Source: an uncultured Bacteroidales bacterium (GTDB lineage: Bacteria > Bacteroidota > Bacteroidia > Bacteroidales > UBA932). Taken from it: a DNA stretch of 64,000 nt. The stretch lies in the NCBI GenBank assembly GCA_944322585.1, contig CALUPB010000001.1, positions 248,001 through 312,000 on the forward strand, read 5' to 3'. The notes beneath the pieces are model-generated. The model ran no database searches. It had not been told where the DNA came from and was given only the letters and a program-made list of their open reading frames with translations. Both the position numbers and the translations under genes were made by a program. Positions 2,855 through 23,391 of the stretch are shown in pieces. The stretch's first letter is position 1. Every line of letters starts with the position of its first letter.

Positions 2855-2866
2855 AAGGAGGTGATT
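2855..2866 (+). promoter_or_regulatory. Extended Shine-Dalgarno of rpsU
   Basis: AAGGAGGTGATT is complementary to essentially the whole 3' tail of 16S rRNA (AUCACCUCCUU) and ends 5 nt before the ATG. Almost no other gene in this window has such a site. In Bacteroidetes, bS21 is known to help hide the anti-Shine-Dalgarno, so this site fits autogenous control of rpsU. Confidence 0.8.
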
Positions 2867-2871
2867 AAGCT

Positions 2872-3066
2872 ATGATTATTGTGCCTGTAAAAGAAGGAGA
2901 GAACATCGAGAAGGCCCTGAAGAAATTCAAGAGGAAATTCGAGAAGACCGGTGCCATCCGCGAACTCCGCGCAAGGAAGGCTTTCGTAAAGCCGTCCGTA
3001 AAGAGGAGAGACGAGATCAAGAAGGCCATCTATGTTCAGCACATGAGGCTTCTGGACGAGCAGTAG
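2872..3066 (+). CDS. rpsU: 30S ribosomal protein bS21
   Basis: A 64-residue basic protein beginning MIIVPVKEGENIEKALKKF, with the typical RELRARKAFVKPSVKRR core. It is the bS21 protein of the small ribosomal subunit and sits near the 16S 3' end. It is monocistronic: it has its own promoter in a palindrome, a perfect Shine-Dalgarno at 2855-2866 and a terminator at 3093. Length and sequence are normal for the family. Confidence 0.97.
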   Translation: MIIVPVKEGENIEKALKKFKRKFEKTGAIRELRARKAFVKPSVKRRDEIKKAIYVQHMRLLDEQ

Positions 3067-3092
3067 GACGTTTCTTACATACATTATAAGTT

Positions 3093-3120
3093 GACCGGCC
3101 CGGAATGAGCCGGTCTTTTT
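3093..3120 (+). terminator. Intrinsic terminator of rpsU
   Basis: A 7-bp stem GACCGGC/GCCGGTC (3093-3099 with 3109-3115) is followed by five T residues, 26 nt after the rpsU stop. Confidence 0.85.
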
Positions 3121-3219
3121 GTCTATGATCCGCCGCCACAGGCATGTTCCTCCCCGGCTGTCAGGAAAGATGCATACAGAATTTTGACAAAATTTTAAAC
3201 AGCTTCTCAAAACAGTTTC

Positions 3220-3227
3220 TAAATTTG
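3220..3227 (+). promoter_or_regulatory. -7 box upstream of the AsmA-like gene
   Basis: TAAATTTG matches TAnnTTTG, 40 bp before the ATG at 3268. I see no convincing -33 box at 19-21 bp distance. Confidence 0.45.
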
Positions 3228-3267
3228 TATCCGGTAGCAATACAGACTGACATCAATTCATATCTAT

Positions 3268-6200
3268 ATGGACAACGGAAGGATACCGGCTGCCGATACA
3301 GGCGGCAGGACAAAAGCCACAGGGCCGGATACATCCGGGAGACATGATTCCGGAAGGAACGGAAAACCCTGGAAACGGGCAAGGATACTGGCAAAGGCCG
3401 TATTATGGATTGTCGTAATATGCATAGTACTGATGGCCACCGTACAGATTGTCCTGTCGCCGTCGGTACTGACCGGGATAGTCGACAGATTCGCAGGACA
3501 ATATGTCGACGGAAAACTGGAATTCAGCAAAGTGTCCGTATCGGTCATACGCAGTTTCCCTTTCCTTAATGTTACACTCGACAGCCTGAGCGTCACTTAT
3601 CCGTCCGGAAGGTTTGAAAGTCTCGAAAACGGAGACAGCCGCGCCAAGCTGCTCCGGGCCGGCACGTCGGAGACCGCGGACACACTGGTGTCTTTCAGCA
3701 GATTCTCCGCCTCCGTAGACCTTGCCGCCCTTGTCGGGGGTACCATACACATCCCCAACATAGAACTTACACGGCCGCGAATTTTCGCCAAAAGCTATAA
3801 TGATTCCACTGCCAACTGGAACATATTCAAAAGTACGTCAGGAGTATCGGCAGAGACGGGCATTCCTGCCTCAGATGCAGAAGGCATCGCTGCAGAAGCG
3901 GACAGCACCTCCTCCGGTTCAGGCACGCTTCTCAGGATAGTACTGGAACGCATATCTCTGGACGGACGTCCGTTCATCGTGTTCTGCAGCAGCGAAGACA
4001 CCCTGTTCGCAGCCCTCAACCTCAAAGAGATGAAATTCAGGGGCAGACTCTCGACACACGACCCGAGGCGCAACAGGATAGGCTTCATGATCGACAGCCT
4101 GTTCGTGGGAGGACGGATGGCATCGGACACCCTTGCTTTCGGACTGCAGGAACTGAGAATGAGGGAACAGAGAGGGGATTTCGCGCTCAAGGCAAAGGCA
4201 GGTGCCGCACTTGCCACCCGCTCCTTCGGCAGGATTTTTCTTCCTGTGGAAATCGATTCAAGGGTCAGATTCCTCAGGGACACTGTCCCTTCCGTATCCA
4301 TAAGCAGATTCAGGGCTGATATAGCCGGACTGCCCGTCAATGCCAGGGCAGACATGAAATTCTGTTCCGACAGCATTTGGGTGCAGGGGAATGCGGCAAT
4401 AGAGCAATGCCGGGTAAATGATCTCCTCAGATTCTGGGGAAGGAACATATTCCCTGCCATGGCGGAGCTGAGGACTGATGCCGTCATCAATCTGAATGCG
4501 GCATTCGACGGCTGGTACGATCCCGCAGATGGTCGCCTGCCCGCCTTCGACATCAGCCTCAACATTCCTGAGAGCCCCATCAGGCACAGCATCATAAGGC
4601 TGGACAGCAATATAGCCGCCGACATCTGGGCCAAGGGAGGAAACGGTGCGCCCGTGAATGCAGGAGTCAATGATTTCCACATGAGAGGAAAAGCCCTGGA
4701 CATTTTTCTGAAAGGTTCCGTATCCGACCTGCTCGGAGAAGACCCGCTCCTTGACGTGAACGGAGGCATCGGCATATCACTCGACACACTGGGGCGATTC
4801 ATAAGGAAAAGCACAGGCATGGATGTATCCGGCCGCCTGGAAGCCGAAGTGAAAGGGGCTGTACGCAGATCCCAGATGACGCCATACACCTTGGCGTCTG
4901 CCGACCTGACGGCAAAAGCAAGGAGCGACATGCTGAGGATATATTCGGACAAGGACAGCATAGACGTGCATATAGACAGTCTGGACATCCTTCTGGCCAC
5001 CGTCGGCAACAGGCACGACAGGGCCGTGGAGGAAGGGACACGAATGATAGCGCTCTCCGCACGTCTCGACAGTGCCCGCGTAAGATACAGAGACATGTTC
5101 TCCGCATCGGGGAGCAATCTCTCATTGAAAGCCCGGAACGATGCGGCCATTCTGGACGACAGGGACTCCTCATCCTACTACCCTTTCGGAGGCCGTCTGG
5201 AAATAGGCAGGCTCGTATTGACAGATCGGGATTCAAACCGTGTAACATTGAGGAATTCGGACAATACATTCAGGATATCCCCTTCACGGGCAGACAAGGA
5301 GATACCGGTACTCTCTCTCAAAAGCGACAACGGGGCGATACGTCTCCGGTCCGCATTCGACAGGTTGTCGTTGAGAGGCCTCGGCATCAACATAATAGCG
5401 ACCAAAAGCGATGCCCGGCGCAAAAGGATGGCAAAAGCCTTCATCGATTCCCTTTCAAGAAAATACCCGGAAATACCGAGGGATTCCCTGTTCGGACACC
5501 TTCGGAACCTAAGGGGCAAAGCGGCACTCCCAGACTGGCTTACAGAGGAGGATTTCAGAAAGAATGACCTCGACTTCAGGCTCGACAGCTCGATGGCCAA
5601 ATATTTCAGGGAATGGGATTTCTACGGAGACCTCAAATTCAGACGGGCATCTCTGATGACACCTTCGTTCCCTCTGCGTACCAGCCTCAACGGTTTCGAC
5701 GGATACATAACCAACAACAAACTCACACTCAAGAGTTTCACTCTCAGGAGCGGAAAATCGGACATCAGGGCGAAAGGAGAACTGTCCGGACTCCGGGGGG
5801 CTCTGCTCGCCAACAGGCCCGTTTCCCTGAACATGGACATACGTTCAGACAGGCTGAATATCAATGAACTGCTTGGAGCATACACATTCGGAAAGAAATT
5901 CAGGGAAAGGGCAGACTCATTGAAGGCGGCCGCCGACACCCTTAATGACGAAAGCTATGAAGACATCATAGCCATAGACACTCTCGCTGCCGCAGACATC
6001 CCTGAACCGGCATTGATTGTCGTCCCTGCCAATATCACAGCCGACATTTCGGTCGAAGCATCCGATGTCTCGTTCGCGAAAATGGACATGGACACCCTGA
6101 GCGCGAAAATGATGATAAGGGAGAGATGCGTACAGCTCACCGGCATCAAGGCCACATCCAATGTGGGAAATCTGGCTTTCGACGGTTTCTATTCAACCCG

Positions 6201-7098
6201 TACCAAAGAAGACATTACCGCAGGGTTCAGTCTCAACCTCAATGACATCACTGCCGAGAAAATCATCGAAATGATACCTGCGGTGGACAGTCTGATGCCG
6301 ATGCTGCAGTCTTTCTACGGCAAGCTCGACTGCGAACTGGCAGCCACTGCACAGATCGACACTTCCATGAACATAATCATGCCGAGCCTCAACGGGGTGC
6401 TGCGCATCAAGGGGCAGGATCTTGCACTTGTAGAGAGCGAAGACCTGTTCAAGATAGCGAAAATACTGAAATTCAATGATATCCACAATATCCATATCAA
6501 CGACATGTCTGTCGAAGGACTTATCGGGGACAACCGTGTGGAAATATTCCCGTTCGTTCTTGCCGTAGACAGGTACTCTCTCGCATTGAGCGGAATACAG
6601 GGACTCGACCAGTCATTCAAATACCATATCTCCATCCTGAAATCCCCTCTGCTGATAAGATTCGGAGTAGACCTGTGGGGACCTGATTTCGACAACATGA
6701 AATTCAGGATAGGCCGGGCAAAATACAAGGACGCCAATGTCCCGGTATTCTCCGCCGTCATAGACGAGACCAGGCTCAATCTTCTGCAGTCGATAAGGAA
6801 CATTTTCACAAAAGGAGTGGAAGCAGCCGTGAAGGAAAATGAAAGCAGTGAGGCAATCACGGAATACAAGGAAAAAATCGACTACCGGAATGCCGCCGAA
6901 ACGGACATGGAGTCTCTGTCGGCAGCGGAATCCGCTTCCCTTGAAGCCGCAGACGACAGCGGGCAGTCCGGAACAGACAATCCGGACAGTCATGACGGGC
7001 AGGTCTCTGAAGAGAAGACAACAGTCGGAGCAGACATGGCACAGTCGGCTACGGACACACTGACGTCATCCGGGAAAAAGGACTGGAACCAACAATAA
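3268..7098 (+). CDS. AsmA-like envelope biogenesis protein
   Basis: A 1276-residue protein with a cytoplasmic basic N-terminus of about 40 residues, a single membrane segment at about residues 41-63, and a long periplasmic region rich in alternating beta strands, typical of AsmA/TamB-like proteins. These form bridge-like lipid conduits between the inner and outer membranes. The C-terminal third, containing VEGLIGDNRVEIFPFVLAVD and FRIGRAKYKDANVPVF, matches AsmA-family C-terminal domains of Bacteroidetes. The final 90 residues are acidic and low-complexity. prmA follows after 13 bp, probably in one transcript. A specific role here is inference from the family. Confidence 0.8.
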   Translation: MDNGRIPAADTGGRTKATGPDTSGRHDSGRNGKPWKRARILAKAVLWIVVICIVLMATVQIVLSPSVLTGIVDRFAGQYVDGKLEFSKVSVSVIRSFPFLNVTLDSLSVTYPSGRFESLENGDSRAKLLRAGTSETADTLVSFSRFSASVDLAALVGGTIHIPNIELTRPRIFAKSYNDSTANWNIFKSTSGVSAETGIPASDAEGIAAEADSTSSGSGTLLRIVLERISLDGRPFIVFCSSEDTLFAALNLKEMKFRGRLSTHDPRRNRIGFMIDSLFVGGRMASDTLAFGLQELRMREQRGDFALKAKAGAALATRSFGRIFLPVEIDSRVRFLRDTVPSVSISRFRADIAGLPVNARADMKFCSDSIWVQGNAAIEQCRVNDLLRFWGRNIFPAMAELRTDAVINLNAAFDGWYDPADGRLPAFDISLNIPESPIRHSIIRLDSNIAADIWAKGGNGAPVNAGVNDFHMRGKALDIFLKGSVSDLLGEDPLLDVNGGIGISLDTLGRFIRKSTGMDVSGRLEAEVKGAVRRSQMTPYTLASADLTAKARSDMLRIYSDKDSIDVHIDSLDILLATVGNRHDRAVEEGTRMIALSARLDSARVRYRDMFSASGSNLSLKARNDAAILDDRDSSSYYPFGGRLEIGRLVLTDRDSNRVTLRNSDNTFRISPSRADKEIPVLSLKSDNGAIRLRSAFDRLSLRGLGINIIATKSDARRKRMAKAFIDSLSRKYPEIPRDSLFGHLRNLRGKAALPDWLTEEDFRKNDLDFRLDSSMAKYFREWDFYGDLKFRRASLMTPSFPLRTSLNGFDGYITNNKLTLKSFTLRSGKSDIRAKGELSGLRGALLANRPVSLNMDIRSDRLNINELLGAYTFGKKFRERADSLKAAADTLNDESYEDIIAIDTLAAADIPEPALIVVPANITADISVEASDVSFAKMDMDTLSAKMMIRERCVQLTGIKATSNVGNLAFDGFYSTRTKEDITAGFSLNLNDITAEKIIEMIPAVDSLMPMLQSFYGKLDCELAATAQIDTSMNIIMPSLNGVLRIKGQDLALVESEDLFKIAKILKFNDIHNIHINDMSVEGLIGDNRVEIFPFVLAVDRYSLALSGIQGLDQSFKYHISILKSPLLIRFGVDLWGPDFDNMKFRIGRAKYKDANVPVFSAVIDETRLNLLQSIRNIFTKGVEAAVKENESSEAITEYKEKIDYRNAAETDMESLSAAESASLEAADDSGQSGTDNPDSHDGQVSEEKTTVGADMAQSATDTLTSSGKKDWNQQ

Positions 7099-7111
7099 AC
7101 CGAACATTATA

Positions 7112-7966
7112 ATGAACAGTCAGGAATACATAGAGGTCTCAATAAAAATCGACCCCTACACGGAAGAAAACGCGGAAATACTGATAGCGGAAATAGAAGA
7201 CCTGCCGTTCGAGTCTTTTCTGGAAGAGGCTCCATACCTGAAATGCTATATCCAGAAAGAGAAATACGACCCGCGGATGCTCAAGCTCGTACTGAGCGGC
7301 CTCGACTACGGGTTCACGACAGGATTCTCTGCCGCCCTCATGCCGCAGACAAACTGGAATGCAGTGTGGGAAAGCCAGTTCTCCCCTATCGTGGTGGACG
7401 GACAGTGTACAGTCAAGGCAACATTCCACAAAGGGCTCAAAAGGACAAGGTTCAACATTACCATAGACCCGAAAATGGCATTCGGTACAGGCCATCATCA
7501 GACTACATACATGATGTGCAGGGCACTTCTCAAGCATGAGAAAGATATCAGGGAGAAGGTGGTCATGGACATGGGCTGCGGCACTGCAATCCTTGCAATT
7601 CTGGCGGCCAAGATGGGGGCCGGGCACACCTACGGAATCGACATCGATGCAGTCGCGGCTGCTTCTGCATTCGACAATGCCCGCATCAACAGGGTTTCCC
7701 GCAAGGTGGAGACCTACTGCGGGGACGCCTCGCTCCTGCAACGGGGCAAATACGACATCCTGCTTGCCAACATCAACAGGAATATCCTGCTTGAAGACAT
7801 CCCGACCTATGCGGTGAGCCTCCGGAAAGAAGGACTCCTGTTTGTAAGCGGCTTCTATACCGAAGATCTTCCGATGATATGCTCCTGCGCACAGAGAGCC
7901 GGACTTACCTACATTGAAGATGATTCGATGGACAACTGGTGCTGTGCAGGTTTCAGGAAGCAGTAA
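7112..7966 (+). CDS. prmA: Ribosomal protein L11 methyltransferase
   Basis: A 284-residue SAM-dependent methyltransferase that trimethylates ribosomal protein uL11. An N-terminal recognition domain (residues 1-100) precedes the catalytic Rossmann domain. Visible motifs are FGTGHHQTT, the SAM-binding VMDMGCGTAIL (residues 151-161), GIDIDAVA, and LLANINRN near residue 220, which is the PrmA catalytic signature. It lies 13 bp after the AsmA-like gene. Length is normal. Confidence 0.95.
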   Translation: MNSQEYIEVSIKIDPYTEENAEILIAEIEDLPFESFLEEAPYLKCYIQKEKYDPRMLKLVLSGLDYGFTTGFSAALMPQTNWNAVWESQFSPIVVDGQCTVKATFHKGLKRTRFNITIDPKMAFGTGHHQTTYMMCRALLKHEKDIREKVVMDMGCGTAILAILAAKMGAGHTYGIDIDAVAAASAFDNARINRVSRKVETYCGDASLLQRGKYDILLANINRNILLEDIPTYAVSLRKEGLLFVSGFYTEDLPMICSCAQRAGLTYIEDDSMDNWCCAGFRKQ

Positions 7967-8068
7967 CCCTTCCGGCCATCCATGACCTGACACCGTTCCC
8001 GAGAGATGCCTGTTCACGGATATGAGCCGGCGGATTCCATAAGAATCAAGCCAAAGTACGGAGAATGA

Positions 8069-8099
8069 TTTGCCGTTTGAAAATTAGTTCCTATCTTTG
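8069..8099 (+). promoter_or_regulatory. Promoter of tRNA-Leu(TAG)
   Basis: TTTG at 8069-8072 and TATCTTTG at 8092-8099 are separated by 19 bp. This predicts a 5' leader of about 55 nt before the tRNA. Confidence 0.75.
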
Positions 8100-8161
8100 C
8101 AATCCTTACGGACCATGCTTCTCTGAATGATATTGGAGGCACTTCATAGTATGGCCGACAA

Positions 8162-8243
8162 GCGGGCGTGTTGTAATTGGTAGCCAAGCCAGACTTAGGA
8201 TCTGGTGCCGCAAGGCGTATGGGTTCGAGTCCCTTCGCCCGCA
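8162..8243 (+). tRNA. tRNA-Leu (anticodon TAG)
   Basis: The acceptor stem GCGGGCG pairs with CGCCCGC (8236-8242) and the discriminator is A. The anticodon loop CTTAGGA gives anticodon TAG. The long class II variable arm (TGCCGCAAGGCGT) and the T-arm GGGTTCGAGTCCC are present. The 3' CCA is not encoded. Confidence 0.95.
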
Positions 8244-8294
8244 CAAAATTTCCAGCGGTGTTTTCTCCGGACATCCCGAAAGCAATGAACGGAA

Positions 8295-9647
8295 ATGAAG
8301 GTTCTATGGGTAACGAACACTCCGTGTTCCAGTATTGAACGAAACGGGGACCGGGCAATATCCGGCGGATGGCTTTCATCTTTGGAGAAGGCCGTCAGGG
8401 ATGATATCGAACTGGAAATCGCTTTCCTGTCCTCAGGACAGAGGCAGGAAGAATTCCTTTACGAAGGGGTAAAATACCATTCCATCGCCCCGTACAGTTC
8501 CGGAAACTACTTCATATTCCGTCTCAGACGGCTGTTTATGCCATGGTCGAGACAGGACGCACTCATTCTGGAAAGGCTGGAACATATCATAAAGGATGTC
8601 AGGCCGGATATTATCCATATCCACGGCACGGAAAAATGTTTCGGGCTCATATACGGCAGGATGAACGGTGCAGAGGGCTGCATAGAGACAGGAGGCGTCA
8701 GAATTCCCGTAGCAATCTCCATACAGGGCATAATGGCATTTTGCCATATTAAATATTTTGCCGGCATATCCAGGCATGATGTCAGGAAATACGAAAGACT
8801 CGGATGCAGACTGAAGAAACAGTCCGCTCTCAGGATGTACGGACAGATCCGCCATCAGGCACACAACGAGGCCGGAATGCTCATGGATATCAGATATATA
8901 ATCGGCCGGACCGCATGGGACAAGGAATATACGGGGAAAATGAATCCCGACAGGATATATTTCACCGTCGGGGAAATCATGCGGACACCATTTTACGGCG
9001 CCGATGACAATAGCCGGACAGCTGCCCAAGAGGGAAAACCGGGCAGCGCAAACCCGGAGAAAGCGCCGGAGGGAACCGGAGACAGACCGATCAGGATAGC
9101 CACCACGATATCTGACGGCATCTACAAGGGCTATGAACTGCTGCTTGAAGTCGCCGCCAGGCTCAGGGCAAAAGGGGTGGGATATATCTGGACTGTCATA
9201 GGCTATGGTGCTGACAATGAAGCGGTATCTGTATCGGAGAAGTCAACCGGGCTGAATTCATCGGAACTCGGCATAAGGCTGGCCGGCAGACTGGATGCCG
9301 AAGAGATAGTCAGAGAACTGTCCGGAGCCGATATCTACTGTCAGGTCAGTCATATCGAGAACAGTCCCAACAGCCTGTGCGAGGCGATGCTGCTCGGGCT
9401 GCCGTCAGTAGCTACCGAAGTCGGAGGGACCTCGTCTCTTATAGACAGCGGCAGGACAGGCATCCTTGTATCAGACACTGCCCCTGACGGATTTGCGGAT
9501 GCAATCATCAGCCTCGCTTCCGACAGGGCTGCCGCAGCATGTATGGGACATGCAGCACGGCAGGCTGCCCTGGCAAGGCATGACCCTGCAAAGGTAAAAC
9601 GGCAACTGCTGGATACATATAAGGAAATCATCTTGTCAATCAGGTAA
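8295..9647 (+). CDS. Glycosyltransferase family 4-like protein
   Basis: A 450-residue GT-B fold glycosyltransferase. The N-terminal half begins MKVLWVTNTP with a GGW acceptor-loop motif and PDIIHIHGTEK near residue 112. The C-terminal half has the nucleotide-sugar binding region, including HIENSPNSLCEAMLLGLPSVATEVGG, where the first E of the family's E-x7-E motif appears as SLCEA. It is followed after 10 bp by a hexapeptide acyltransferase, so both probably act on the same surface glycan. No promoter or terminator is visible between it and the tRNA-Leu gene 51 bp upstream. Confidence 0.85.
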   Translation: MKVLWVTNTPCSSIERNGDRAISGGWLSSLEKAVRDDIELEIAFLSSGQRQEEFLYEGVKYHSIAPYSSGNYFIFRLRRLFMPWSRQDALILERLEHIIKDVRPDIIHIHGTEKCFGLIYGRMNGAEGCIETGGVRIPVAISIQGIMAFCHIKYFAGISRHDVRKYERLGCRLKKQSALRMYGQIRHQAHNEAGMLMDIRYIIGRTAWDKEYTGKMNPDRIYFTVGEIMRTPFYGADDNSRTAAQEGKPGSANPEKAPEGTGDRPIRIATTISDGIYKGYELLLEVAARLRAKGVGYIWTVIGYGADNEAVSVSEKSTGLNSSELGIRLAGRLDAEEIVRELSGADIYCQVSHIENSPNSLCEAMLLGLPSVATEVGGTSSLIDSGRTGILVSDTAPDGFADAIISLASDRAAAACMGHAARQAALARHDPAKVKRQLLDTYKEIILSIR

Positions 9648-9657
9648 ATTCAATCGA

Positions 9658-10254
9658 ATGATATTGCAAAGGATATACAGAGGTCTGTGGGCTGTCAGGA
9701 TCCGACTCGACGGGATGCTTCTCGGATGCCTTCTGAGACTGTACGGAGCCAAGTACGGGACTTTGAGGACTACAGGACTGCCTCATCTGACAATACGTAA
9801 AGGAGCCCGGGTGACAATCGGGAACGGATTACGACTCAACAACTGCTTCTACGGCAATGCCTTGAGCACGCACAGATGTGCCATATGGGTCGGGGAAAAC
9901 GCACGGCTCGATATCGGCAGGGATGTCGGGATCAGCAGCAGTCATATCGTTGCATCCGATTCGGTCACAATAGAAGACAACGTAAAAATCGGAGGAGGCT
10001 GCTATGTCATGGATACGGATTTCCACAGCATGTCACCTTTGGAAAGGCTGTCCCCCGACACAGACCGGACAGGCACGAAGACCGCTCCGGTAACGATACG
10101 TGAAAATGCCTTCATCGGCGCGGCAAGCATTATCCTGAAAGGCGTCACCATAGGGAAGAATTCAATCATCGGAGCAGGCTCCGTCGTAACAGGGAACATT
10201 CCGGACAACCAGCTTTGGGCAGGCAATCCGGCACGCTTCATAAAGGATCTGTAA
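9658..10254 (+). CDS. Left-handed beta-helix acyltransferase (WcaF/NodL-like)
   Basis: A 198-residue protein with hexapeptide repeats from about residue 40 to the end, for example TIEDNVKIGGGCYVMDTDFH, whose His is the usual catalytic residue, then NAFIGAASIILKGVTIGKNSIIGAGSVV and the closing GNPARFIKDL. Such enzymes transfer acetyl or other acyl groups from CoA to sugars. The partner gene is the glycosyltransferase 10 bp upstream, so glycan acetylation is likely. The exact acceptor cannot be told. Confidence 0.85.
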   Translation: MILQRIYRGLWAVRIRLDGMLLGCLLRLYGAKYGTLRTTGLPHLTIRKGARVTIGNGLRLNNCFYGNALSTHRCAIWVGENARLDIGRDVGISSSHIVASDSVTIEDNVKIGGGCYVMDTDFHSMSPLERLSPDTDRTGTKTAPVTIRENAFIGAASIILKGVTIGKNSIIGAGSVVTGNIPDNQLWAGNPARFIKDL

Positions 10255-10335
10255 TACTCCGGGGATCCGATCCAGACAAAGTCCGTCACTCACGGTCCAT
10301 GCGAGCCCGACATTTTACAGTTCAAGCGGAACCCG

Positions 10336-11880: not shown

Positions 11881-11989
11881 ACCGGGTTACGTTTTTTCAA
11901 CTCATTTTATCACCCCAAATGTCCAGGTGACCTAAAAACAATAAAAGCAGCAACATTATGATACACATAACATTACTGCAATTTTCCAG

Positions 11990-12064
11990 GGTGCCAGGTG
12001 GGGCTCGAACCCACGACCTTCGGAACCACAATCCGACATTCTAACCAACTGAACTATTGGCACC
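11990..12064 (-). tRNA. tRNA-His (anticodon GTG)
   Basis: The 75-nt transcript starts with the extra G(-1) opposite C73, the hallmark of tRNA-His. The acceptor GTGCCA pairs with TGGCAC, the anticodon loop is TTGTGGT, and the T-arm is GTGGGTTCGAGCCCCAC. CCA is not encoded. Confidence 0.95.
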
Positions 12065-12081
12065 ATATTTATTTCGGACTG

Positions 12082-12112
12082 CAAAGGTAGAAAAATTTTT
12101 CCACTCTGCAAA
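12082..12112 (-). promoter_or_regulatory. Promoter of tRNA-His
   Basis: On the minus strand TTTG (12112-12109) precedes TACCTTTG (12089-12082) with a 19-bp spacer. It lies 17 bp upstream of the tRNA. Confidence 0.75.
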
Positions 12113-12321
12113 AATTTTGTTTACCTCCCGTTCAGACCATTAATCCCCCGTGTTTTCAAATTATCCTTTATACACACAATAATGTTTTACATGAGTATTG
12201 GACTTATAGCAAAAGTAGAGAAAAATATCCGTAATCCAGGCGTCCATTCCGGTGAACTTGATACTACCCGAACGACTTGCATTATTTCTCCTGAATCTAT
12301 CGGTATGTGAGCGTTTTTTTG

Positions 12322-12329: not shown

Positions 12330-12397
12330 CCTTTTGGAAACATACTGTCCGACAACAAGTAACCATAAACATTCAACCGACATTATATAATCAAGCA

Positions 12398-14974: not shown

Positions 14975-16657
14975 CTGAAACGAACAATCATACCGTTGCT
15001 GTTCGCAGCCGCTGCACTGACGGGGTGCGACCTGCTCGGCATCGGGGGCGATGAAAATGTGGGCGCCATCTCTCTCAGCTCACAGATGCTGGAAGTCCCG
15101 GCCGAAGGAGGTTCCTACAACATCAGCGTCTACTGCAATGATGACTGGACCACAGAGTCCGGAGCATCATGGGTCTATGTATCCAAAGACAGCTACAGCC
15201 CCGGCGATGCTACAGTCAACATATCCCCCAACACTCCTGACGGTAACGGAAACGTCTACGACAGGGAAACGAAGATCACTTTCCGGAGCGGAGAATCGAG
15301 TGCCGTACTCTCTGTCAAGCAGTCAGCTTCATCCGACAACACCATATCCATCAGCCAGAACGAAGCATCATTCGGCTCCGAAGGAGGAAGGGTCGATGTC
15401 ATGGTCCACTGTACCGGCGAATGGACTCTGCACGGAGACTGGAACGTAAGCTGGACAAGTCCGTCCGAAGAAGACGGATATGATGGCAGTATTGTCACAT
15501 TCCTGATCGACTACAATCCGGACACCGGAAGAAGAATTACCACATACACATTCTCCTGCGGAGTAGCGGAAGCGACGCTGGCTATAACCCAGACCGGGGA
15601 CAACAGCGAAGCCATCCAATTCAAGGACCCGTATTTCGAGGAAGCCCTGCTCTATGCCGGAGCCGACATGAACAGGGACGGCCAGATCAGGATAAACGAA
15701 GCCTCAGCAGTCACAACGCTTGACATATCCGACAGGAACATCCGGAATATGGACGAAATCAGGTATTTCACATCACTTGTCAGCATAGACTGCAGCGGGA
15801 ACGACCTCGAAGGCTTTCCTGATTTCAGCAATTGTACGAACCTTGAGAAGCTGATATGCTACAGTAACGGCCTTACCGGTCTTGACCTCAACACATGCCC
15901 CGGGCTGACATATCTGAACTGCGAGCGTAACCCGCTCGGTACCATAGACCTGTCTGCCGTTCCGGGACTGGAAATACTGCAATGCAACGGCTGCCGTCTC
16001 ACTTCACTCGATTTTTCCGGCAATCCTCGGATACGGGACATATATGCTGTCGACAACGTAAACATGACGGACATCAACCTAAGCGGATGCAGAATGCTCG
16101 AAACCGTGTCGCTCTCCAACACTGCCATTACTGCACTGGAGTTCTCTGGGCTTCCTGTCCTGGACGATGTCTTTGTTTCAGGCAACAGACTCCAGTCCCT
16201 CATATTCCGCGACTGTCCGTCATTGACTTACATATCATGCGAAAGCAATGATATCAGCACGCTTGTTACAGACAACTGTCCTTCCCTCGAAAGGCTGTTC
16301 TGTAACGACAACAGCATAACTTCGCTCGACATCGTATCGGACAGGATGTGGCATATAGAATGCGGCAACAACGGAATAACATCGCTTGACCTTTCCGGTT
16401 GTCCGAACCTTGAAGATCTCGACTGCAACAACAATGAAATCACTTCCCTGGATGTGAGCGGCCTGCCGCTTCTCCAGTCACTCGACTGCAGTTCCAATTC
16501 CATCAGCGAACTCAACCTTACGAATAACAGCGACCTCGAAAGCCTCGATTGCCGCGACAACGGCAAGATGACAGTCACGGTCTACCGGTACCACACAATA
16601 GGAAATTTCCGTCTCACCGAAAACGATGAGGACATAACCGTAGTTTATGTGGATTAA
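14975..16657 (+). CDS. BACON-LRR surface lipoprotein (apparent CTG start)
   Basis: About 560 residues. Two BACON domains (about 30-120 and 122-205, each with an ATLAITQTG-like end) are followed by a short N-R-D-G-Q segment and about 13 leucine-rich repeats of 21 residues of the form LxxLDCSxNxITSLDLSxCPx. BACON modules bind glycans or mucin; the repeats suggest protein or surface binding. The only start giving a proper signal peptide (KRTIIPLLFAAAALTGC) is the CTG at 14975. An in-frame TTG at 14996 would leave MLFAAAALTGC without a basic n-region. A stop codon lies 6 nt upstream of the CTG. An ATG-to-CTG change may have weakened this gene. Confidence 0.7.
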   Translation: MKRTIIPLLFAAAALTGCDLLGIGGDENVGAISLSSQMLEVPAEGGSYNISVYCNDDWTTESGASWVYVSKDSYSPGDATVNISPNTPDGNGNVYDRETKITFRSGESSAVLSVKQSASSDNTISISQNEASFGSEGGRVDVMVHCTGEWTLHGDWNVSWTSPSEEDGYDGSIVTFLIDYNPDTGRRITTYTFSCGVAEATLAITQTGDNSEAIQFKDPYFEEALLYAGADMNRDGQIRINEASAVTTLDISDRNIRNMDEIRYFTSLVSIDCSGNDLEGFPDFSNCTNLEKLICYSNGLTGLDLNTCPGLTYLNCERNPLGTIDLSAVPGLEILQCNGCRLTSLDFSGNPRIRDIYAVDNVNMTDINLSGCRMLETVSLSNTAITALEFSGLPVLDDVFVSGNRLQSLIFRDCPSLTYISCESNDISTLVTDNCPSLERLFCNDNSITSLDIVSDRMWHIECGNNGITSLDLSGCPNLEDLDCNNNEITSLDVSGLPLLQSLDCSSNSISELNLTNNSDLESLDCRDNGKMTVTVYRYHTIGNFRLTENDEDITVVYVD

Positions 16658-16669
16658 ATACAAAACCTT

Positions 16670-17740
16670 ATGAAAACATTGCAGGTCATTATAAAATCAT
16701 TCGCTATCGTCTCTTTGTCTGCTGGTGTCCTGATGTCATGCGCAAACGGAGATGACAATACACACTACTTCGATGAATACGGAAACCTGATCATGGATCT
16801 TCAGTTTGATGAAAGATTTGCCGGGTTGTGGGTGAACGTATACAACGGCACATACTCCGAATATTCCGAAGACGCCGAGACGGATGAAGCGGGAACCATA
16901 TATGAATTCAAGGAAAGCGGATTATTCAACATCTATTACCGTGAGACTCCCGGCTCTCTGACGGACGGTATAGTCAAAGGCTGTTCATTGGAAGATTTCG
17001 AACTTGCGGATTCATATTATGCCACCTGCGAAGACGGGATGATGTATGATCTTGCGGCAGCATATTTCTACGGCAGGTACAGTTTCCCCGACGAGGGGAC
17101 ATTCATCCTCGATCAGGACGGCTATTGCAGGATGTTCCGGAAAGTAAGCGGATTCGAGGACAATATCCTTGTCAGGTCTATAAATGACGAGATATTCTTA
17201 GGATACGACAATGCAGACAGACTCTCGGCAATATCCGTCATCAGGGACGGCATATCTACAGAATACCGGATCTCGTACGGACGGGATATTCTGATAACTT
17301 CTGCCTCAGGCAATGGCTCACAGCAATGGCTCTGCACTTTATCCATGTATAATGACAGGCTCGATACCATTGAATATCAAGACCGGACGACTGAATATGA
17401 ATATTCCGAAGACACGGGACTGCTCGAAAGCATGGCCGGGAACAGGTACAGATGGGAAGACGGCAACCTCATTTCAGGAGGTGAGACAGTGGAGTCGGTC
17501 TACCTCGAAACGGAGAACAGGATGAACATCGACATCTACGGAGACTGTCCGTTCGGTCTGAAGCTCGACGGACTTGCAAGCCGCGACTATGTCAAGTCAA
17601 GGATATGTACGGAAGGAGGACAGACCGTCACCAGAACCTATGAATACGAATTCACCGAAGACGGCATGGTGGATGTCATGACCGTCACCACCGTTTCCGG
17701 AGAAAACAGGGACATCAAAACCTACAGATTTTCATATTGA
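16670..17740 (+). CDS. DUF4595-like lipoprotein of unknown function
   Basis: A 356-residue lipoprotein with signal peptide ending LMSC (Cys24). The second half consists of short strands with repeated Y-E-Y-x-E/D and DG turns (TTEYEYSEDTGLLESM, YEYEFTEDGMVDVMTV), resembling the porin-like-fold DUF4595 domain of Bacteroidetes. It lies 12 bp after the BACON-LRR gene, probably in the same transcript. No catalytic motif is seen. Confidence 0.6.
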   Translation: MKTLQVIIKSFAIVSLSAGVLMSCANGDDNTHYFDEYGNLIMDLQFDERFAGLWVNVYNGTYSEYSEDAETDEAGTIYEFKESGLFNIYYRETPGSLTDGIVKGCSLEDFELADSYYATCEDGMMYDLAAAYFYGRYSFPDEGTFILDQDGYCRMFRKVSGFEDNILVRSINDEIFLGYDNADRLSAISVIRDGISTEYRISYGRDILITSASGNGSQQWLCTLSMYNDRLDTIEYQDRTTEYEYSEDTGLLESMAGNRYRWEDGNLISGGETVESVYLETENRMNIDIYGDCPFGLKLDGLASRDYVKSRICTEGGQTVTRTYEYEFTEDGMVDVMTVTTVSGENRDIKTYRFSY

Positions 17741-17871
17741 TACAACTCGTCAAAGGCACTCAGCCTATGTTGGCAGAAAGGGAACATCCTATGACAATGA
17801 ACAACCGGGCTAATTATCCGGACTCCATTAGACGCATCGGCAACATGGGAAAGCAGGAAGACTGCTAAAGA

Positions 17872-18080
17872 GTGAGCGTTCCAGGTCTGCCAAAACCGCG
17901 CAGACCTGGAACAGTGACAGACCACAGAGAGCACTCTGACAGGGGTGAGCGTTCCAGGTCTGTTGAAAACGCGCAGACTTGGAACGGTGAGAGGCTGCAG
18001 GAAGCACTCTGGCAGGGGTAAGCGTTCCAGGTCTGTCGAAAACGTGCAGACCGGGAACGGCGAAAGGCTGCAGATGGGGC
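17872..18080. repeat. Three tandem 73-bp repeats, each with a 12-bp hairpin
   Basis: Units start at 17872, 17945 and 18018, exactly 73 bp apart; the third is cut short after about 55 bp. Each contains GTTCCAGGTCTG, an 11-nt loop and a complementary arm. Unit 2 keeps pairing through a G-T wobble, and unit 3 has one mismatch. The period is not a multiple of three, so it is not coding. It lies between the DUF4595-like gene and the decarboxylase promoter. Confidence 0.85.
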
Positions 18081-18234
18081 TCCGGACGCAATTGCAAAAG
18101 CAGACTATGGGAAAGGTTATTCGAGCTTCCCTCTCTTTGGAATATCTTCGCGAACTGTTCATCAATGCCAATATTTGATGCGGTTACCCGGGCGGCAGAG
18201 ACGGGCGATTAGGAAAGTGTTTGTAAAAAATGAC

Positions 18235-18242
18235 TATCTTTG
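18235..18242 (+). promoter_or_regulatory. -7 box of the carboxyltransferase gene
   Basis: TATCTTTG matches TAnnTTTG. It lies downstream of a possible ATG at 18230, so that ATG cannot be on this transcript. This supports the start at 18272. Confidence 0.6.
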
Positions 18243-18271
18243 CAGGATTGGAAAATCAAAAACACAGAAAC

Positions 18272-20053
18272 ATGGCACGTGAAATCAAATTTTCTTTAGT
18301 CTACAGAGATATGTGGCAGTCTTCGGGAAAATATGTCCCGACAGTCAGCCAGCTCAAGGAAGTGGCTCCTGCAATAATCGACATGGGATGCTTCGACAGG
18401 GTCGAGACCAACGGCGGGGCATTCGAGCAGGTCAACCTTCTTTTCGGCGAGAACCCTAACAAGGCTGTCCGCGAATGGACCGCTCCTTTCAACAAGGCAG
18501 GCATCCAGACGCACATGCTTGAAAGAGGTCTCAACGCATTGAGGATGAATCCTGTTCCTGCCGATGTCCGGGAACTCATGTATAAGGTCAAATGCAAACA
18601 GGGCACCAACATATCAAGGTCTTTCTGCGGTCTGAATGACCACAGGAACCTGCGCCTTTCCGTGGAATATGCCAAGAAGGGAGGCATGATTTCCCAGGTG
18701 GCCCTTTCCATCACCAATTCTCCTGTCCATACAATCGAATACTATATGGGTATCGTGGACAAGGTGGTTGAATACGGTTGCGACGAGATCTGCCTCAAGG
18801 ATATGGCGGGAATCGGCCGCCCTACATTCCTCGGACAGCTGACATCACAGATCAAGAAGAAATATCCTCACATCAAAGTCCAGTACCACGGACATTGCGG
18901 TCCGGGATTCTCCCCTGCTTCCATGCTGGAGGTGGCCCGTGCAGGCGCTGACTATCTTGATGTGGCTGTCGAACCTCTCAGCTGGGGGAAAGTCCATCCT
19001 GACGTAATCACTATCCGCGAAATGATGAAAGCCGACGGGTTCAAGGTGAAGGATCTGAACATGAACGCATACATGGAAGTCCGCCGTCTGACCCAGAAAT
19101 TCATCGACGAGTTCCTCGGATACTGGATCGACCCTAACAACTCGCATATGAGTTCTCTGCTTGTAGGCTGCGGTCTGCCGGGCGGTATGATGGGCTCCAT
19201 GATGGCTGACCTGAAAGGCTTCCATGGGGCTATCAATGCATCGCTCAGGGCTCAGGGCAAGAATGAGCTCAGCCTTGATGAGCTGATGGTCATGCTGTTC
19301 CAGGAAGTAGAATATGTATGGCCTCGTCTCGGTTATCCGCCACTCGTGACACCTTTCAGCCAGTATGTGAAGAACACCGCCCTGATGAACCTGATGAACA
19401 TCCTCAAGGGTCAGCCTCGCTGGTCTACAATCGACAAGGATACATGGAACATGATTCTCGGCAAGATGGGAAAACTGCCGGGAGAGCTTGCGCCTGAGAT
19501 TGTGGAACTTGCCAAGAGCAAAGGTCTTGAGTTCTACACCGGCAACCCTCAGGATGCATTCCCTGACGAGCTCGACAAGTTCAGGGCAATGATGAAGGAA
19601 GAAGGATGGGATGAGGGAGAAGACCAGGAGGAACTCTTCGAATTCGCAATGCACGAAAGGCAGTACCGCGACTACAAGAGCGGAATTGCCAAGGAACGTT
19701 TCCAGAAAGACCTTGCAGCAGCCAAGGAAAAGGCGGGAGCACCTATAGTTATCGTGCGTCCTGTCGTGGAAATGCCTAAGTACGATGTGGAGAAGATTGC
19801 AGAGAAATATCCGCATGCCAAGCCTGTCCAGGCTCCTGTAAAGGGCCAGCTCATCTGGCAGGTGGATGTGGATGACGCTTCTACCGCTCCTGTCGTGGGC
19901 ACTGAGGTCAAGGCCGGGCAGGCTATGAGTTATGTCCAGACTTATTACGGTATGGAAGAGGTTGTCCCTGCTGTGGACGGAAGGATTGTCGCCATCTGCT
20001 GCAAACAGGGGGATAATGTTGCCAAAGGAGAGATTGTCGCCTTTGTAGAATAG
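18272..20053 (+). CDS. Oxaloacetate decarboxylase alpha / pyruvate carboxylase subunit B-like protein
   Basis: A 593-residue biotin-dependent carboxyltransferase type protein. The TIM-barrel transferase domain has Asp13 (RDMWQS), the carbamylated-lysine motif ICLKDMAG with Lys176, and zinc ligands His206 and His208 in YHGHCGPG. A PYC_OADA-type helical domain follows, including PRLGYPPLVTPFSQYVKN. The C-terminal 75 residues have a biotinyl/lipoyl fold, but the A-M-K-M hairpin reads YVQTYYGMEE: Tyr559 replaces the biotin-accepting lysine. The enzyme must then use a separate carrier protein or a different mechanism. Start chosen at 18272 because the -7 box overlaps the upstream ATG. Monocistronic, followed by a structured repeat region. 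Confidence 0.85.
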   Translation: MAREIKFSLVYRDMWQSSGKYVPTVSQLKEVAPAIIDMGCFDRVETNGGAFEQVNLLFGENPNKAVREWTAPFNKAGIQTHMLERGLNALRMNPVPADVRELMYKVKCKQGTNISRSFCGLNDHRNLRLSVEYAKKGGMISQVALSITNSPVHTIEYYMGIVDKVVEYGCDEICLKDMAGIGRPTFLGQLTSQIKKKYPHIKVQYHGHCGPGFSPASMLEVARAGADYLDVAVEPLSWGKVHPDVITIREMMKADGFKVKDLNMNAYMEVRRLTQKFIDEFLGYWIDPNNSHMSSLLVGCGLPGGMMGSMMADLKGFHGAINASLRAQGKNELSLDELMVMLFQEVEYVWPRLGYPPLVTPFSQYVKNTALMNLMNILKGQPRWSTIDKDTWNMILGKMGKLPGELAPEIVELAKSKGLEFYTGNPQDAFPDELDKFRAMMKEEGWDEGEDQEELFEFAMHERQYRDYKSGIAKERFQKDLAAAKEKAGAPIVIVRPVVEMPKYDVEKIAEKYPHAKPVQAPVKGQLIWQVDVDDASTAPVVGTEVKAGQAMSYVQTYYGMEEVVPAVDGRIVAICCKQGDNVAKGEIVAFVE

Positions 20054-20070
20054 ATATATTATACAACAGG

Positions 20071-20149
20071 ATAGTCTGAGTGTTTCCGGTCCTCCCCGCA
20101 AGCGGGTCCCCTCCCGTTTCGGGAGCCAATGCCGGAACACTCAGACTAT
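20071..20149. repeat. Complex inverted repeat after the carboxyltransferase gene
   Basis: Outer arms ATAGTCTGAGTGTTTCCGG (from 20071) and CCGGAACACTCAGACTAT (to 20149) pair over 18 bp with one bulge. Between them sit two small hairpins, CCCGCAAGCGGG and CTCCCGTTTCGGGAG. A second, shorter element with the same CTCCC...GGGAGCCAATG core lies at about 20180-20234. No T-run follows the outer stem, so it is not a classic terminator. Confidence 0.7.
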
Positions 20150-20175
20150 TCTGTTTAAAGGCAATATATCATTCA
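20120..20175. repeat. 56-bp direct repeat, copy 1
   Basis: This 56-bp block recurs at 20291-20346 with two differences (54/56 identical). It contains the right arm of the complex inverted repeat. In between lie two copies of a shorter ATTCAAAGGCTAT block, so the region is built from shuffled sub-repeats. Confidence 0.85.
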
Positions 20176-20290
20176 AAGGCTATCGCAAAAATTATCACGA
20201 TCCCTCCCTTTTCGGGAGCCAATGTCTGCGATACCTGACAATCTTATTACATTTACTCTATGCTATTCAAAGGCTATTGCAGAAAATATT

Positions 20291-20346
20291 CGGGAACCAA
20301 TGCCGGAACACTCAGACTATTCTGTTTAAAGGCAATATAGCATTCA
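20291..20346. repeat. 56-bp direct repeat, copy 2
   Basis: Second copy of the block at 20120-20175, starting CGGGAACCAATGCCGG. It ends 38 bp before the radC stop codon. No complementary left arm precedes it, so it cannot form the same long stem. Confidence 0.85.
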
Positions 20347-20384
20347 CAGAGTCTTACAGTCGGTTATCAAAGGATGTCAAGACT

Positions 20385-21071
20385 TTAGAGGGATGGGTCG
20401 CCGCTGTCGGAGAAACTGTAGTAGCGTCCGTCCGCTATAATGACATGGTCGAGCAGGGATATGTCGAACGTATCCAGAGCTTTTTTGAGATTGCGTGTAA
20501 GCCGGATATCGGAATTGCCCGGATGTGGATCGCCTGACGGATGATTGTGTGAAATTATTACGGACGAAGCCCTGAGATCGATTGCCCTGCGCACAACGGA
20601 CTTGATCTCCACTATGGTCTCACTCTGTCCTCCGATACTGAGCCTTTCCTTGGATATGACCTTATTGTTTCTGGAAAGATACAGCATCCAGCATTCTTCA
20701 TGCTGAAGCCCCCGCATGAACGGGGACAGTTCCCTGCAGACATCCTCCGCAGAACGTATTGTCGGACGGGTATTGTCCGGCACTTCGGCGCACAGTCTCC
20801 TGCCCAGTTCGAGAGCAGCTCCAAGAGTGACAGCCTTGCCCGGTCCTATTCCTTCGATACGGCAGAGTTCATCAATCGAGAGGCGTGAGGCTTTCGTCAG
20901 ACTGCCCTCCGAAACGATAAGCACCGTCTGGGCTACTTCAAGGACATTCTTTCCTTCTGTGCCCGTCCTGAGAAGGATTGCCATCAGCTCTGCGTTGCTC
21001 AATGCGGATGCACCCTTTTCAAGCATCTTCTCCCTCGGTCTTTCATCCACGCATAAATCCTTAATCTTCAT
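20385..21071 (-). CDS. radC: RadC-like JAB-domain protein
   Basis: A 228-residue protein with an N-terminal helix-hairpin-helix region (IDELCRIEGIGPGKAVTLGAA) and a C-terminal JAB1/MPN metalloprotease-like domain carrying HNHPSGDPHPGNSD, the full JAMM zinc motif. RadC proteins are named for DNA repair, but their biochemical role is unsettled. The start at 21071 is preferred over an upstream ATG at 21098 because a strong Shine-Dalgarno lies 7 nt before it. Confidence 0.9.
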   Translation of the reverse strand: MKIKDLCVDERPREKMLEKGASALSNAELMAILLRTGTEGKNVLEVAQTVLIVSEGSLTKASRLSIDELCRIEGIGPGKAVTLGAALELGRRLCAEVPDNTRPTIRSAEDVCRELSPFMRGLQHEECWMLYLSRNNKVISKERLSIGGQSETIVEIKSVVRRAIDLRASSVIISHNHPSGDPHPGNSDIRLTRNLKKALDTFDISLLDHVIIADGRYYSFSDSGDPSL

Positions 21072-21078
21072 AGACTTT

Positions 21079-21086
21079 CCTCCTTT
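21079..21086 (-). promoter_or_regulatory. Shine-Dalgarno of radC
   Basis: AAAGGAGG on the minus strand, 7 nt before the ATG at 21071. It is one of only four GGAGG-type sites found directly before a start codon in the window, and it decides the start. Confidence 0.6.
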
Positions 21087-21157
21087 CCTCCTCCGCACAT
21101 CAACGACATCGCCACAGTAAAGATACGCAAAAGTCGGAAATGTTCGCCAAAAACAGC

Positions 21158-21165
21158 TATCTTTG
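21158..21165 (+). promoter_or_regulatory. -7 box of upp
   Basis: TATCTTTG matches TAnnTTTG, 58 bp before the chosen upp ATG. Upstream in-frame ATGs at 21140 and 21167 lie before or at the predicted transcription start and are therefore rejected. Confidence 0.55.
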
Positions 21166-21223
21166 TATGAAACGGGCGGTCACTGACGGCCTTCACACTG
21201 ACAAAAGGATAATACATACATTT

Positions 21224-21874
21224 ATGGAAGTCATCAACCTCGGCAACAGCAACAGCATCCTCAACAACTTCATGGCACAACTGCGTGACAAGACTGTACA
21301 GAAAGACAGGATGCGTTTCAGGATAAATCTCGAAAGGATAGGGGGAATATTCGCCTACGAGATCAGCAAAAGACTGTCATATACTGTAAAACAGGTCGTG
21401 ACACCGCTCGGGATAGCCGATGTGCCTGTCCTTGATACCCCTATCGTGGCCGCTGCCATCCTCAGGGCAGGTCTCCCGCTGCACAAGGGCATCCTGAATT
21501 TTTTCGAAGATGCACAGAATGCCTTCGTGGCTGCATACAGGAAATACGACAAGGGAGACAGCTTCCATATCAACATAGAGTATTCCAGCTCACCCGGACT
21601 TTCAGGCAAGACACTCATTCTCGCCGACACAATGCTTGCAACCGGGGCATCGCTTAAAATAGCATATGACAGGCTGTGCGAAGACGGAGACCCTGTTCAC
21701 ACCCATCTTGTCTGCCCCGTATCGTCGGCCGATGCCGTGGAACATCTGATGAAGAACATGAGCAAGGATGTCACTCTCTGGGTCGCTGCCATAGATGAAG
21801 AACTCACCAGCCACTCCTACATCGTTCCGGGACTCGGAGATGCCGGAGACCTGGCATTCGGGGAAAAGATCTGA
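21224..21874 (+). CDS. upp: Uracil phosphoribosyltransferase
   Basis: A 216-residue type I phosphoribosyltransferase making UMP from uracil and PRPP (pyrimidine salvage, cytoplasm). The PRPP-binding loop is ILADTMLATGAS (about residues 128-139), and the uracil-binding end is SYIVPGLGDAGD. The start MEVINLGNSNSILN matches the usual length of Bacteroidales enzymes and lies downstream of the -7 box. Convergent with rpoN; no clear terminator is seen in the 79 bp between them. Confidence 0.93.
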   Translation: MEVINLGNSNSILNNFMAQLRDKTVQKDRMRFRINLERIGGIFAYEISKRLSYTVKQVVTPLGIADVPVLDTPIVAAAILRAGLPLHKGILNFFEDAQNAFVAAYRKYDKGDSFHINIEYSSSPGLSGKTLILADTMLATGASLKIAYDRLCEDGDPVHTHLVCPVSSADAVEHLMKNMSKDVTLWVAAIDEELTSHSYIVPGLGDAGDLAFGEKI

Positions 21875-21953
21875 CAGGTCTCTCTCCGGACTCTGTTCAT
21901 CTCAAGCACGGGACACGACTGACCTCACATGAAACGGTTTCCGGAAAGACATC

Positions 21954-23378
21954 CTACAGTTCCTTTCTGAGCCGGGCTTTCGGAATATTGAGCTGGTCAC
22001 GGTACTTGGCGATTGTCCTCCGGGCCACTTTATATCCGCGTCTTGTCATCTCGGCGACAAGCTGGTCATCCGTAAGAGGTTTTCTCTTGTCCTCCGCATC
22101 GATACAGTCCTGAAGAGCCTTCTTGAGTTCTCTTGTGGAAACCTCCTCTCCCTCCTGGTTCTCGAGACCTTCAGAGAAGAAATACTTGAGAGGGTATATG
22201 CCGAAATGAGTCTCGATATACTTGCTGTTCACGACCCGGGATATAGTGGATATGTCGAACCCTGTCTTCTCGGCTATATCTTTGAGTACCATCGGTTTGA
22301 GATGAGTCTCGTCCCCGTCCATGAAATAGTCGTGCTGATAGTCTATTATGGCCTGCATCGTACTCTGGAGAGTATTGTGACGCTGTTTGATGGCCTCGAC
22401 AAACCATTTGGCGGAATCAAGTTTCTTCTTGACGAATACTGCCGCCTCCTTCTTCTCCCTTTCAGACGAATTCGCCGCTTCCATCAGGATATCCGCATAT
22501 TTCCTGTTGACCCTCAATTCCGGAATGGAAAAGCGGGGCATCGTAAGTTTGAGCTGGCCGTTATCAAGGGTAAGTACAAAGTCCGGCACTATCTGCTGGG
22601 CCTGGTCGCTGTAGGAATCATCTATCTGGCCCCCCGGAGAAGGATTGAGTTTCAGTATCTTTGCCATTGCGGCCTTGAGCTCCTCCTCGGAAAGGTTCAT
22701 CCTTGACATTATCTTCTGGAAATGCTTGCTAGTAAACTCCTGGAAATAATCCTGAAGTATCGTCATGGCATTGACGACATCCGGAGTCTTCTTCATGTTC
22801 CTTATCTGGAGCAGCAGACATTCCCTCAGATCCCTCGCCCCGACTCCGGGAGGGTCGAATTCCTGGATGATCTTCAGCATATCCAGCACTTCCTTCCCGT
22901 CGGTCTCTATCCCGGCCCTGAAGGCTATATCGTCCACAAGACTCTCGATGTCCCTGCGCAGATAGCCGTCATCATCCAGACTGCCGATGATAAACGCCGC
23001 CACCTTGTACTGATGTTCGGAAAGATTTCTGAACCCGAGCTGGTCCATCAGGCTCTGCGAAAAACTCTCCTTTACGGAAAAGGTATTGTACTGCGGACGT
23101 TCATCCTTGCCGTAGTTGTTGACTCTCAGCTTATAGCTCGGAATCGTGTCGTCTTCCTTGTATTCAGAGAGGGACACCTCCCTCGGTGCATCCTCTTCAT
23201 CTTCCTCCCTCTCCTTGGAAACATCTTCGTCCAGTACGGGATTCTCTTCGAGTTCCTTACGTATCCGCTGCTCGAGTTCCTGGGTCGGCAGTTCTATCAG
23301 CTTTATCGTCTGTATCTGCAGAGGTGAAAGTTTCTGCGTCTGCTTGAGTTCGAGCCCCTGTTTGAGCATATCTCCCAT
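21954..23378 (-). CDS. rpoN: RNA polymerase sigma-54 factor
   Basis: A 474-residue sigma factor. Region I starts MLKQGLELKQTQKLSPLQIQTIKLIELPT, with the Gln/Leu-rich activator-interacting segment. An acidic region II covers about residues 50-85, then comes the core-binding domain, and the C-terminal RpoN box ARRTIAKYR recognises the -24 promoter element. Its own translation signal is an extended Shine-Dalgarno (23381-23391), which is exceptional in this window. It is the third gene of an operon after the LEA-like and SPOR genes, with a 16-bp gap. Confidence 0.96.
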   Translation of the reverse strand: MGDMLKQGLELKQTQKLSPLQIQTIKLIELPTQELEQRIRKELEENPVLDEDVSKEREEDEEDAPREVSLSEYKEDDTIPSYKLRVNNYGKDERPQYNTFSVKESFSQSLMDQLGFRNLSEHQYKVAAFIIGSLDDDGYLRRDIESLVDDIAFRAGIETDGKEVLDMLKIIQEFDPPGVGARDLRECLLLQIRNMKKTPDVVNAMTILQDYFQEFTSKHFQKIMSRMNLSEEELKAAMAKILKLNPSPGGQIDDSYSDQAQQIVPDFVLTLDNGQLKLTMPRFSIPELRVNRKYADILMEAANSSEREKKEAAVFVKKKLDSAKWFVEAIKQRHNTLQSTMQAIIDYQHDYFMDGDETHLKPMVLKDIAEKTGFDISTISRVVNSKYIETHFGIYPLKYFFSEGLENQEGEEVSTRELKKALQDCIDAEDKRKPLTDDQLVAEMTRRGYKVARRTIAKYRDQLNIPKARLRKEL

Positions 23379-23380
23379 AT

Positions 23381-23391
23381 ATCACCTCCTT
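23381..23391 (-). promoter_or_regulatory. Extended Shine-Dalgarno of rpoN
   Basis: AAGGAGGTGAT on the minus strand, ending 2 nt before the ATG (6 nt from GGAGG to ATG). It is the same 11-nt 16S-tail complement as in front of rpsU. Confidence 0.8.

Follow-up and report, generated by a model that had tools for sequence, protein, structure and literature searches.

The closest described system is the autoregulation of bS21 in Flavobacterium johnsoniae, in which ribosomes without bS21 act on rpsU (McNutt et al., 2023, PMC9976891). According to the main text of that work, the native rpsU leader is 25 nt long; among the reporters, a weak AGGA was unresponsive and a 7-nt AGGAGGU rose more than 2-fold with bS21 delta-C. 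The survey described in the same text sampled complete genomes only and asked that rpsU be the strongest among ribosomal protein genes. According to this survey, rpsU stood out clearly as the winner, with an energy below −13 kcal/mol, in four orders, none of them Bacteroidales. Because only complete genomes entered the survey, the genus studied here, which we know as draft genomes, was probably missed. The gene rpoN is unmentioned in the main text. In Bacteroidales, a strong Shine-Dalgarno has been reported for rpsR (bS18) (Jha et al., as cited in PMC9976891, PMC8710568). Our literature search, which covered mainly papers outside subscription journals, found no paper on Shine-Dalgarno sites in Cryptobacteroides and, by titles and abstract openings, no work on an rpoN Shine-Dalgarno or on rpsU/bS21 in the genus.

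The window, that is, the whole stretch of DNA analysed, spans 64,000 nucleotides of an uncultured Bacteroidales bacterium. Its genome has 2.87 Mb in 33 contigs, and the named records closest to it are Candidatus Cryptobacteroides and other uncultured Bacteroidales. The original prediction placed the same 11-mer, AAGGAGGTGAT, before rpsU and before rpoN, and we find it at both positions: at 2855–2865 on the plus strand, 6 nt ahead of the rpsU ATG (2872), and at 23381–23391 on the minus strand, 2 nt ahead of the rpoN ATG (23378). Both gene identities hold by their Pfam domains. The features of the two loci and of radC are as follows.

2798–2839, no strand assigned: perfect 19-nt inverted repeat with a 4-nt loop, overlapping the TAnnTTTG box (from the sequence)
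2834–2841, plus: TAnnTTTG box, likely the rpsU promoter (read from the sequence)
2854–2865, plus: extended Shine-Dalgarno of rpsU; AAAAGGAGGTG pairs, the AT after the run is unpaired; −17.2 kcal/mol
2872–3066, plus: rpsU, bS21, 64 aa, Tyr54 present (PF01165, E 8e-19)
20385–21071, minus: radC (PF04002), start with a AAAGGAGG site, −13.6 kcal/mol, kept in the nearest species
21954–23378, minus: rpoN, sigma-54, 474 aa (PF00309, PF04963, PF04552)
23381–23391, minus: Shine-Dalgarno of rpoN; AAGGAGGTG, 9 nt, pairs, the AT after the run is unpaired; −15.5 kcal/mol
23395–24021, minus: SPOR-domain gene (PF05036), its stop 16 nt before the rpoN start

The sites that had been noted at radC and at an hsp20-like gene are likewise present, the latter as TGGAGGA upstream of the gene starting at 27845, for which we keep the name hsp20 from the original prediction.

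The 11-mer had also been described as an 11-nt complement of the 16S tail, which does not survive comparison with the 16S gene of the source genome. The tail assumed at first, GGCTGGATCACCTCCTTT, matched 0 of 61 genomes. The source 16S ends in GGAACACCTCC (tail GGCTGGAACACCTCCTTTTT, longer form GGCTGGAACACCTCCTTTTTGGAG) and carries the canonical CCUCC core; full 11-nt pairing would require a tail ending GATCACCTCC. Because of the actual tail, unbroken pairing covers 9 nt at rpoN and a shifted 11 nt at rpsU, where the run consists of the rpoN run plus extra 5′ A's. An A·A mismatch follows the run at both sites. When any base was allowed at the variable place of the tail, we obtained 117 matches, spread over 113 of the 400 genus genomes searched, and 116 of these matches read GGAACACC (hand count). 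One genome, G379, has two 16S tails, GGAACACC and GGATCACC, on contigs 52 and 68, and the second may be a contaminant. Energies were calculated with RNAduplex instead of free_scan, using the tail ACACCUCCUUUUU for all species; they rest on a gene-derived tail, with the mature 16S 3′ end assumed. Start positions were assigned by a simple gene caller and by alignment.

Among 454 starts scored in 714 kb of the genome, rpsU is the strongest and passes the −13 kcal/mol mark; outside this sample it is surpassed by a primase-like gene at −18.3 kcal/mol. The TAnnTTTG box upstream is what we take to be the Bacteroidetes promoter motif, and from the position of this putative promoter the rpsU leader would be about 25 nt long. 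The inverted repeat that overlaps the box raises the question of an operator, or of a terminator of the upstream Sir2-family gene. Among 99 rpsU loci, including this one, we notice an inverted repeat of at least 10 nt near the promoter at one other locus (10 nt).

The rpsU site is shared by the genus. The gene is present in 112 of 121 genus genomes, at 117 places, the second places being partly read. AAGGRGGTG is kept in 111 of 111 readable start regions, one of the 112 being cut by a contig end. The longer pattern AAGGRGGTGAT-N1-9-ATG stands at rpsU in 67 genomes; of the other 45 start regions 44 are readable, and all 44 carry AAGGAGGTG, followed by other letters or a GTG start. The pairing energy lies between −15.0 and −19.3 kcal/mol in 78 of 78 scored loci (70 distinct start regions). 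Many members have GGGGG for GGAGG in the site (for example loci L114, L115 and L122), a variant that still pairs via a G·U pair. Outside the genus, we scored rpsU in one genome from each of 22 other Bacteroidales families, and none has a site at −9 or better. The TAnnTTTG box occurs within 60 nt upstream of rpsU in 75 of 77 genus loci; for 69 of these its distance to the ATG is 30–36 nt. Of the 22 other families, 18 have the box as well. Tyr54 of bS21 is found in 76 of 77 genus loci, the remaining one being cut, and in 22/22 of the other families; it is therefore not discriminating, since it also occurs in all of the families without the rpsU site.

On the basis of these comparisons, the extended Shine-Dalgarno of rpsU is a genus-wide new case of a known type, in an order for which the survey of complete genomes reported none. 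Like F. johnsoniae, the genus combines an extended rpsU site with a CCUCC core, Tyr54 in bS21 and a likely short leader. Unlike F. johnsoniae, the host belongs to Bacteroidales, the core of the source 16S tail ends in A where U would stand, and strong sites are also present before several other genes. The site resembles that of Bacteroidales rpsR in standing on a gene of the tail-hiding pocket, but it stands on rpsU. A short bS18 motif matched nothing in the genome stretches scanned, so that rpsR was not found there.

In order to judge the claim that nearly all other starts lack such sites, we compared the 454 starts with mock regions upstream, regions inside genes and shuffled starts. At −7 or better there are 32 starts, 43 upstream mock regions, 51 regions inside genes and 27 shuffled starts; at −9 the numbers are 19, 12, 22 and 7, and at −13 they are 4, 0, 2 and 0. 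In the window, 6 of 43 scored starts reach −7. The bulk of starts is without Shine-Dalgarno use, but a small strong tail exists, and the claim that the genome otherwise lacks such sites is partly wrong. Genome-wide, AAGGAGGT-N3-11-ATG has 24 matches versus 19 for the reversed pattern, and 7 of the 24 resemble real starts, namely rpsU, rpoN and the genes listed below other than the V-ATPase subunit I-like one. Plain AGGAGG-N3-11-ATG shows a weak excess (415 versus 311 reversed), with many matches inside genes. The further starts of interest, with energies in kcal/mol, are listed below.

Contig 7, region of about 4.3–5.8 kb: D5_N/DUF5906 gene, primase-like, the strongest start met in the genome (−18.3)
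Contig 7, same region: DUF6371 gene, the fourth strongest start met in the genome (−15.2)
V-ATPase subunit I-like gene, from the 454-start sample (−14.1)
Gene without Pfam match (−13.5)
DUF4251 gene (−13.3)
Transporter-like gene, named by eye (−12.6)

At least six starts besides rpsU and rpoN, that of radC included, reach −13 or better, and their functions are unrelated. This total is a lower bound, as sites without AAGGAGGT beyond the 714-kb sample escape the count. The Flavobacteriales pattern, with a strong site at rpsU alone, is therefore not what we see: at least seven other starts, rpoN included, lie at −13 or better. The D5_N/DUF5906 and DUF6371 genes are 1.5 kb apart (L348 and L347) and probably belong to a mobile element; their sites raise the question of whether a preference for Shine-Dalgarno sites is common among mobile elements in such hosts.

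A further gene that recurrently carries AAGGRGGTGAT-N1-9-ATG was sought and not found. The 129 matches listed for the 121 genus genomes divide into 67 at rpsU and 62 elsewhere; the reversed control gave 10 matches (hand count). Two of the 62 belong to the source genome, namely the rpoN site and the copy within an open frame. We read 54 of the remaining 60 loci: 4 pass the start rule (1 doubtful), 3 more are start-like by eye, and no gene recurs among these 54 loci. By-eye comparison found no rpoN among the 60.

At −15.5 kcal/mol, the rpoN start is the second strongest of the 454 sampled starts, above the −13 mark. The window holds the 11-mer itself twice; the rest of the genome adds one more copy, on contig 6 within a 567-codon open frame, for a total of three. 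Random 18-mers reach an energy of −15.5 in 12 of 60000 cases, and shuffled start regions do so in 1 of 27240. Multiplied by our estimate of about 2400 genes, these rates give about 0.1 to 0.5 expected starts like rpoN genome-wide; the excess over chance is clear for rpsU, and for rpoN it has to be read against this expectation.

Comparison with relatives revealed that the full-strength rpoN site occurs in the source genome only. The five nearest species, whose RpoN proteins are 90.5–92.6% identical to ours and which form one branch with the source species (support 100/91, tree of 81 RpoN proteins), have sites of −9.8 to −11.3 kcal/mol. The spacer letters and lengths vary among these five, and the site stays at −9.8 or better in all. 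With the best candidate start scored, 0 of 80 named relatives reach −13, 9 reach −9 and 14 reach −7. The recurrence at rpoN that the original prediction proposed as its test therefore fails in its strong form. The nine at −9 are the five nearest species and four scattered ones, and the site label requires five changes on the RpoN tree. We notice that RpoN of the six-species clade starts three codons further upstream (MGDMLKQ; window positions 23370–23378) than in most of the genus (MLKQ). Codon 2 varies among the six species at its third base alone (GGA, GGC, GGT, GGG), which supports the upstream start. Three genus genomes have a single TAG within the rpoN match (G073:C145, G300:C129, G274:C42); these may be broken genes, errors or read-through.

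Meanwhile, rpoN is not the only start of the clade with a kept site. At radC, which has no same-strand gene within 880 nt upstream, the energy is −10.0 to −13.0 in 4 of 4 readable nearest species, and −9 is reached in 7 of 51 named relatives. Among 14 window genes compared with the nearest species, a −9 site stands at rpsU, radC and rpoN in the source genome and at all 10 of their 10 orthologous starts, and for the other 11 genes the count is 0 of 24; SPOR (0/4), LEA_2-like (0/5) and miaB-like (0/5) starts lack it. We further compared 94 orthologous starts from the own-genome sample with one sister species, G124. Starts with a site at −7 also have one in the sister in 8 of 11 cases, versus 6 of 83 of the remaining starts (Fisher p ~4e-6); in mock regions the numbers are 1 of 11 versus 9 of 83 (Fisher p ~1.0). 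At −9, 4 of 8 are shared versus 3 of 86 (p ~7e-4). The eight kept sites are those of rpoN, radC, dnaJ, pdxJ, recN, rbfA, a grpE-like gene and the V-ATPase subunit I-like gene, the last two scoring below NCBIfam cut-offs. The site is absent at −7 in the sister for tyrS and two others. The rpsU gene, cut by the stretch boundary, was omitted from this comparison; it has −15.9 kcal/mol in G124. These results show that the rpoN site is a clade-level site, one of several such sites, and strongest in one species.

We consider it probable that a genus-wide rpsU Shine-Dalgarno, autoregulatory by analogy, exists beside a separate, clade-level rpoN Shine-Dalgarno, with no dedicated circuit needed. Following the model of F. 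johnsoniae, ribosomes free of bS21 would expose the 16S tail, which would pair with the rpsU site over about 10–12 bp so that more bS21 is made, and bS21-bearing ribosomes would keep the tail hidden. We infer that such a regulatory loop operates at rpsU in the genus; this half of the original interpretation fits the published autoregulation (PMC9976891, main text) and holds nearly genus-wide, and the rpoN half does not recur at full strength. The six-species clade, on the same reading, would have a Shine-Dalgarno at the operon-internal rpoN start, likewise at radC, and the rpoN site would have grown to its 9-nt run in the source species. Its probable role is to help initiation at rpoN directly behind the upstream stop. 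In the source species, rpoN may also respond passively when bS21 is lost, since the 7-nt AGGAGGU already responded in F. johnsoniae.

A dedicated regulon, in which sigma-54 has become tied by evolution to the composition of the ribosome, so that bS21-poor ribosomes raise bS21 and sigma-54 jointly, could draw on the first and second ranks of rpsU and rpoN, on an rpoN energy beyond the −13 mark used for rpsU, on the response of the 7-nt reporter to bS21 loss (PMC9976891, main text) and on the weaker site retained in the five nearest species. However, the full-strength site is confined to one species and absent at −13 from all 80 named relatives, and none of the 60 pattern matches from other genomes away from rpsU lies at rpoN by eye. 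Moreover, six further starts lie at −13 to −18, with unrelated functions, which leaves rpsU and rpoN without special standing as a pair. Our data do not support a regulon peculiar to these two genes, and we regard the joint control of bS21 and sigma-54 as very unlikely. Chance, by which drift lengthened a shorter site to the 9-nt run or produced the run from scratch, would suit the 0.1 to 0.5 starts expected from the estimated gene number and the 8-mer search that barely exceeds its control. It is an unlikely account of the whole site, as all five nearest species keep −9.8 or better despite differing spacers and conservation between species exceeds that of mock regions, but the strengthening from about −10 to −15.5 may itself be chance.

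On the other hand, the rpoN site might serve a general re-initiation device that restarts ribosomes finishing the SPOR gene. The short distance to the SPOR stop speaks for such a device, as does the overlap or abutment of site and upstream stop in 4 of 5 nearest species (by eye). We tried translational coupling as a general cause of the sites and rejected it: −7 sites occur at 11 of the 122 starts that are coupled, at 15 of 197 where the gap is longer, and at 6 of the 135 that are first or divergent. As coupled starts are without clear excess, post-stop help is not a general use here; in addition, the conserved radC site has no same-strand gene close upstream. We therefore hold the general device to be possible but doubtful, and retain separate rpsU and clade-level rpoN sites as our explanation.

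A wider reading would let the bS21 level set the translation of rpsU, rpoN, radC, dnaJ, grpE-like, recN, rbfA and others in the six-species clade. We think this quite improbable; if it were true, loss of bS21 would increase bS21 itself along with a sigma factor, chaperones and repair proteins, and specialised ribosomes would have more than one target. With their graded strengths, the further conserved sites of the clade offer a natural series for finding the strength from which ribosomes without bS21 begin to use a site. The distribution of the rpsU site raises the question of whether the genus acquired it or the other families lost theirs. A large gut genus with the site in nearly every genome read would fill the Bacteroidales gap that the survey left for rpsU sites.
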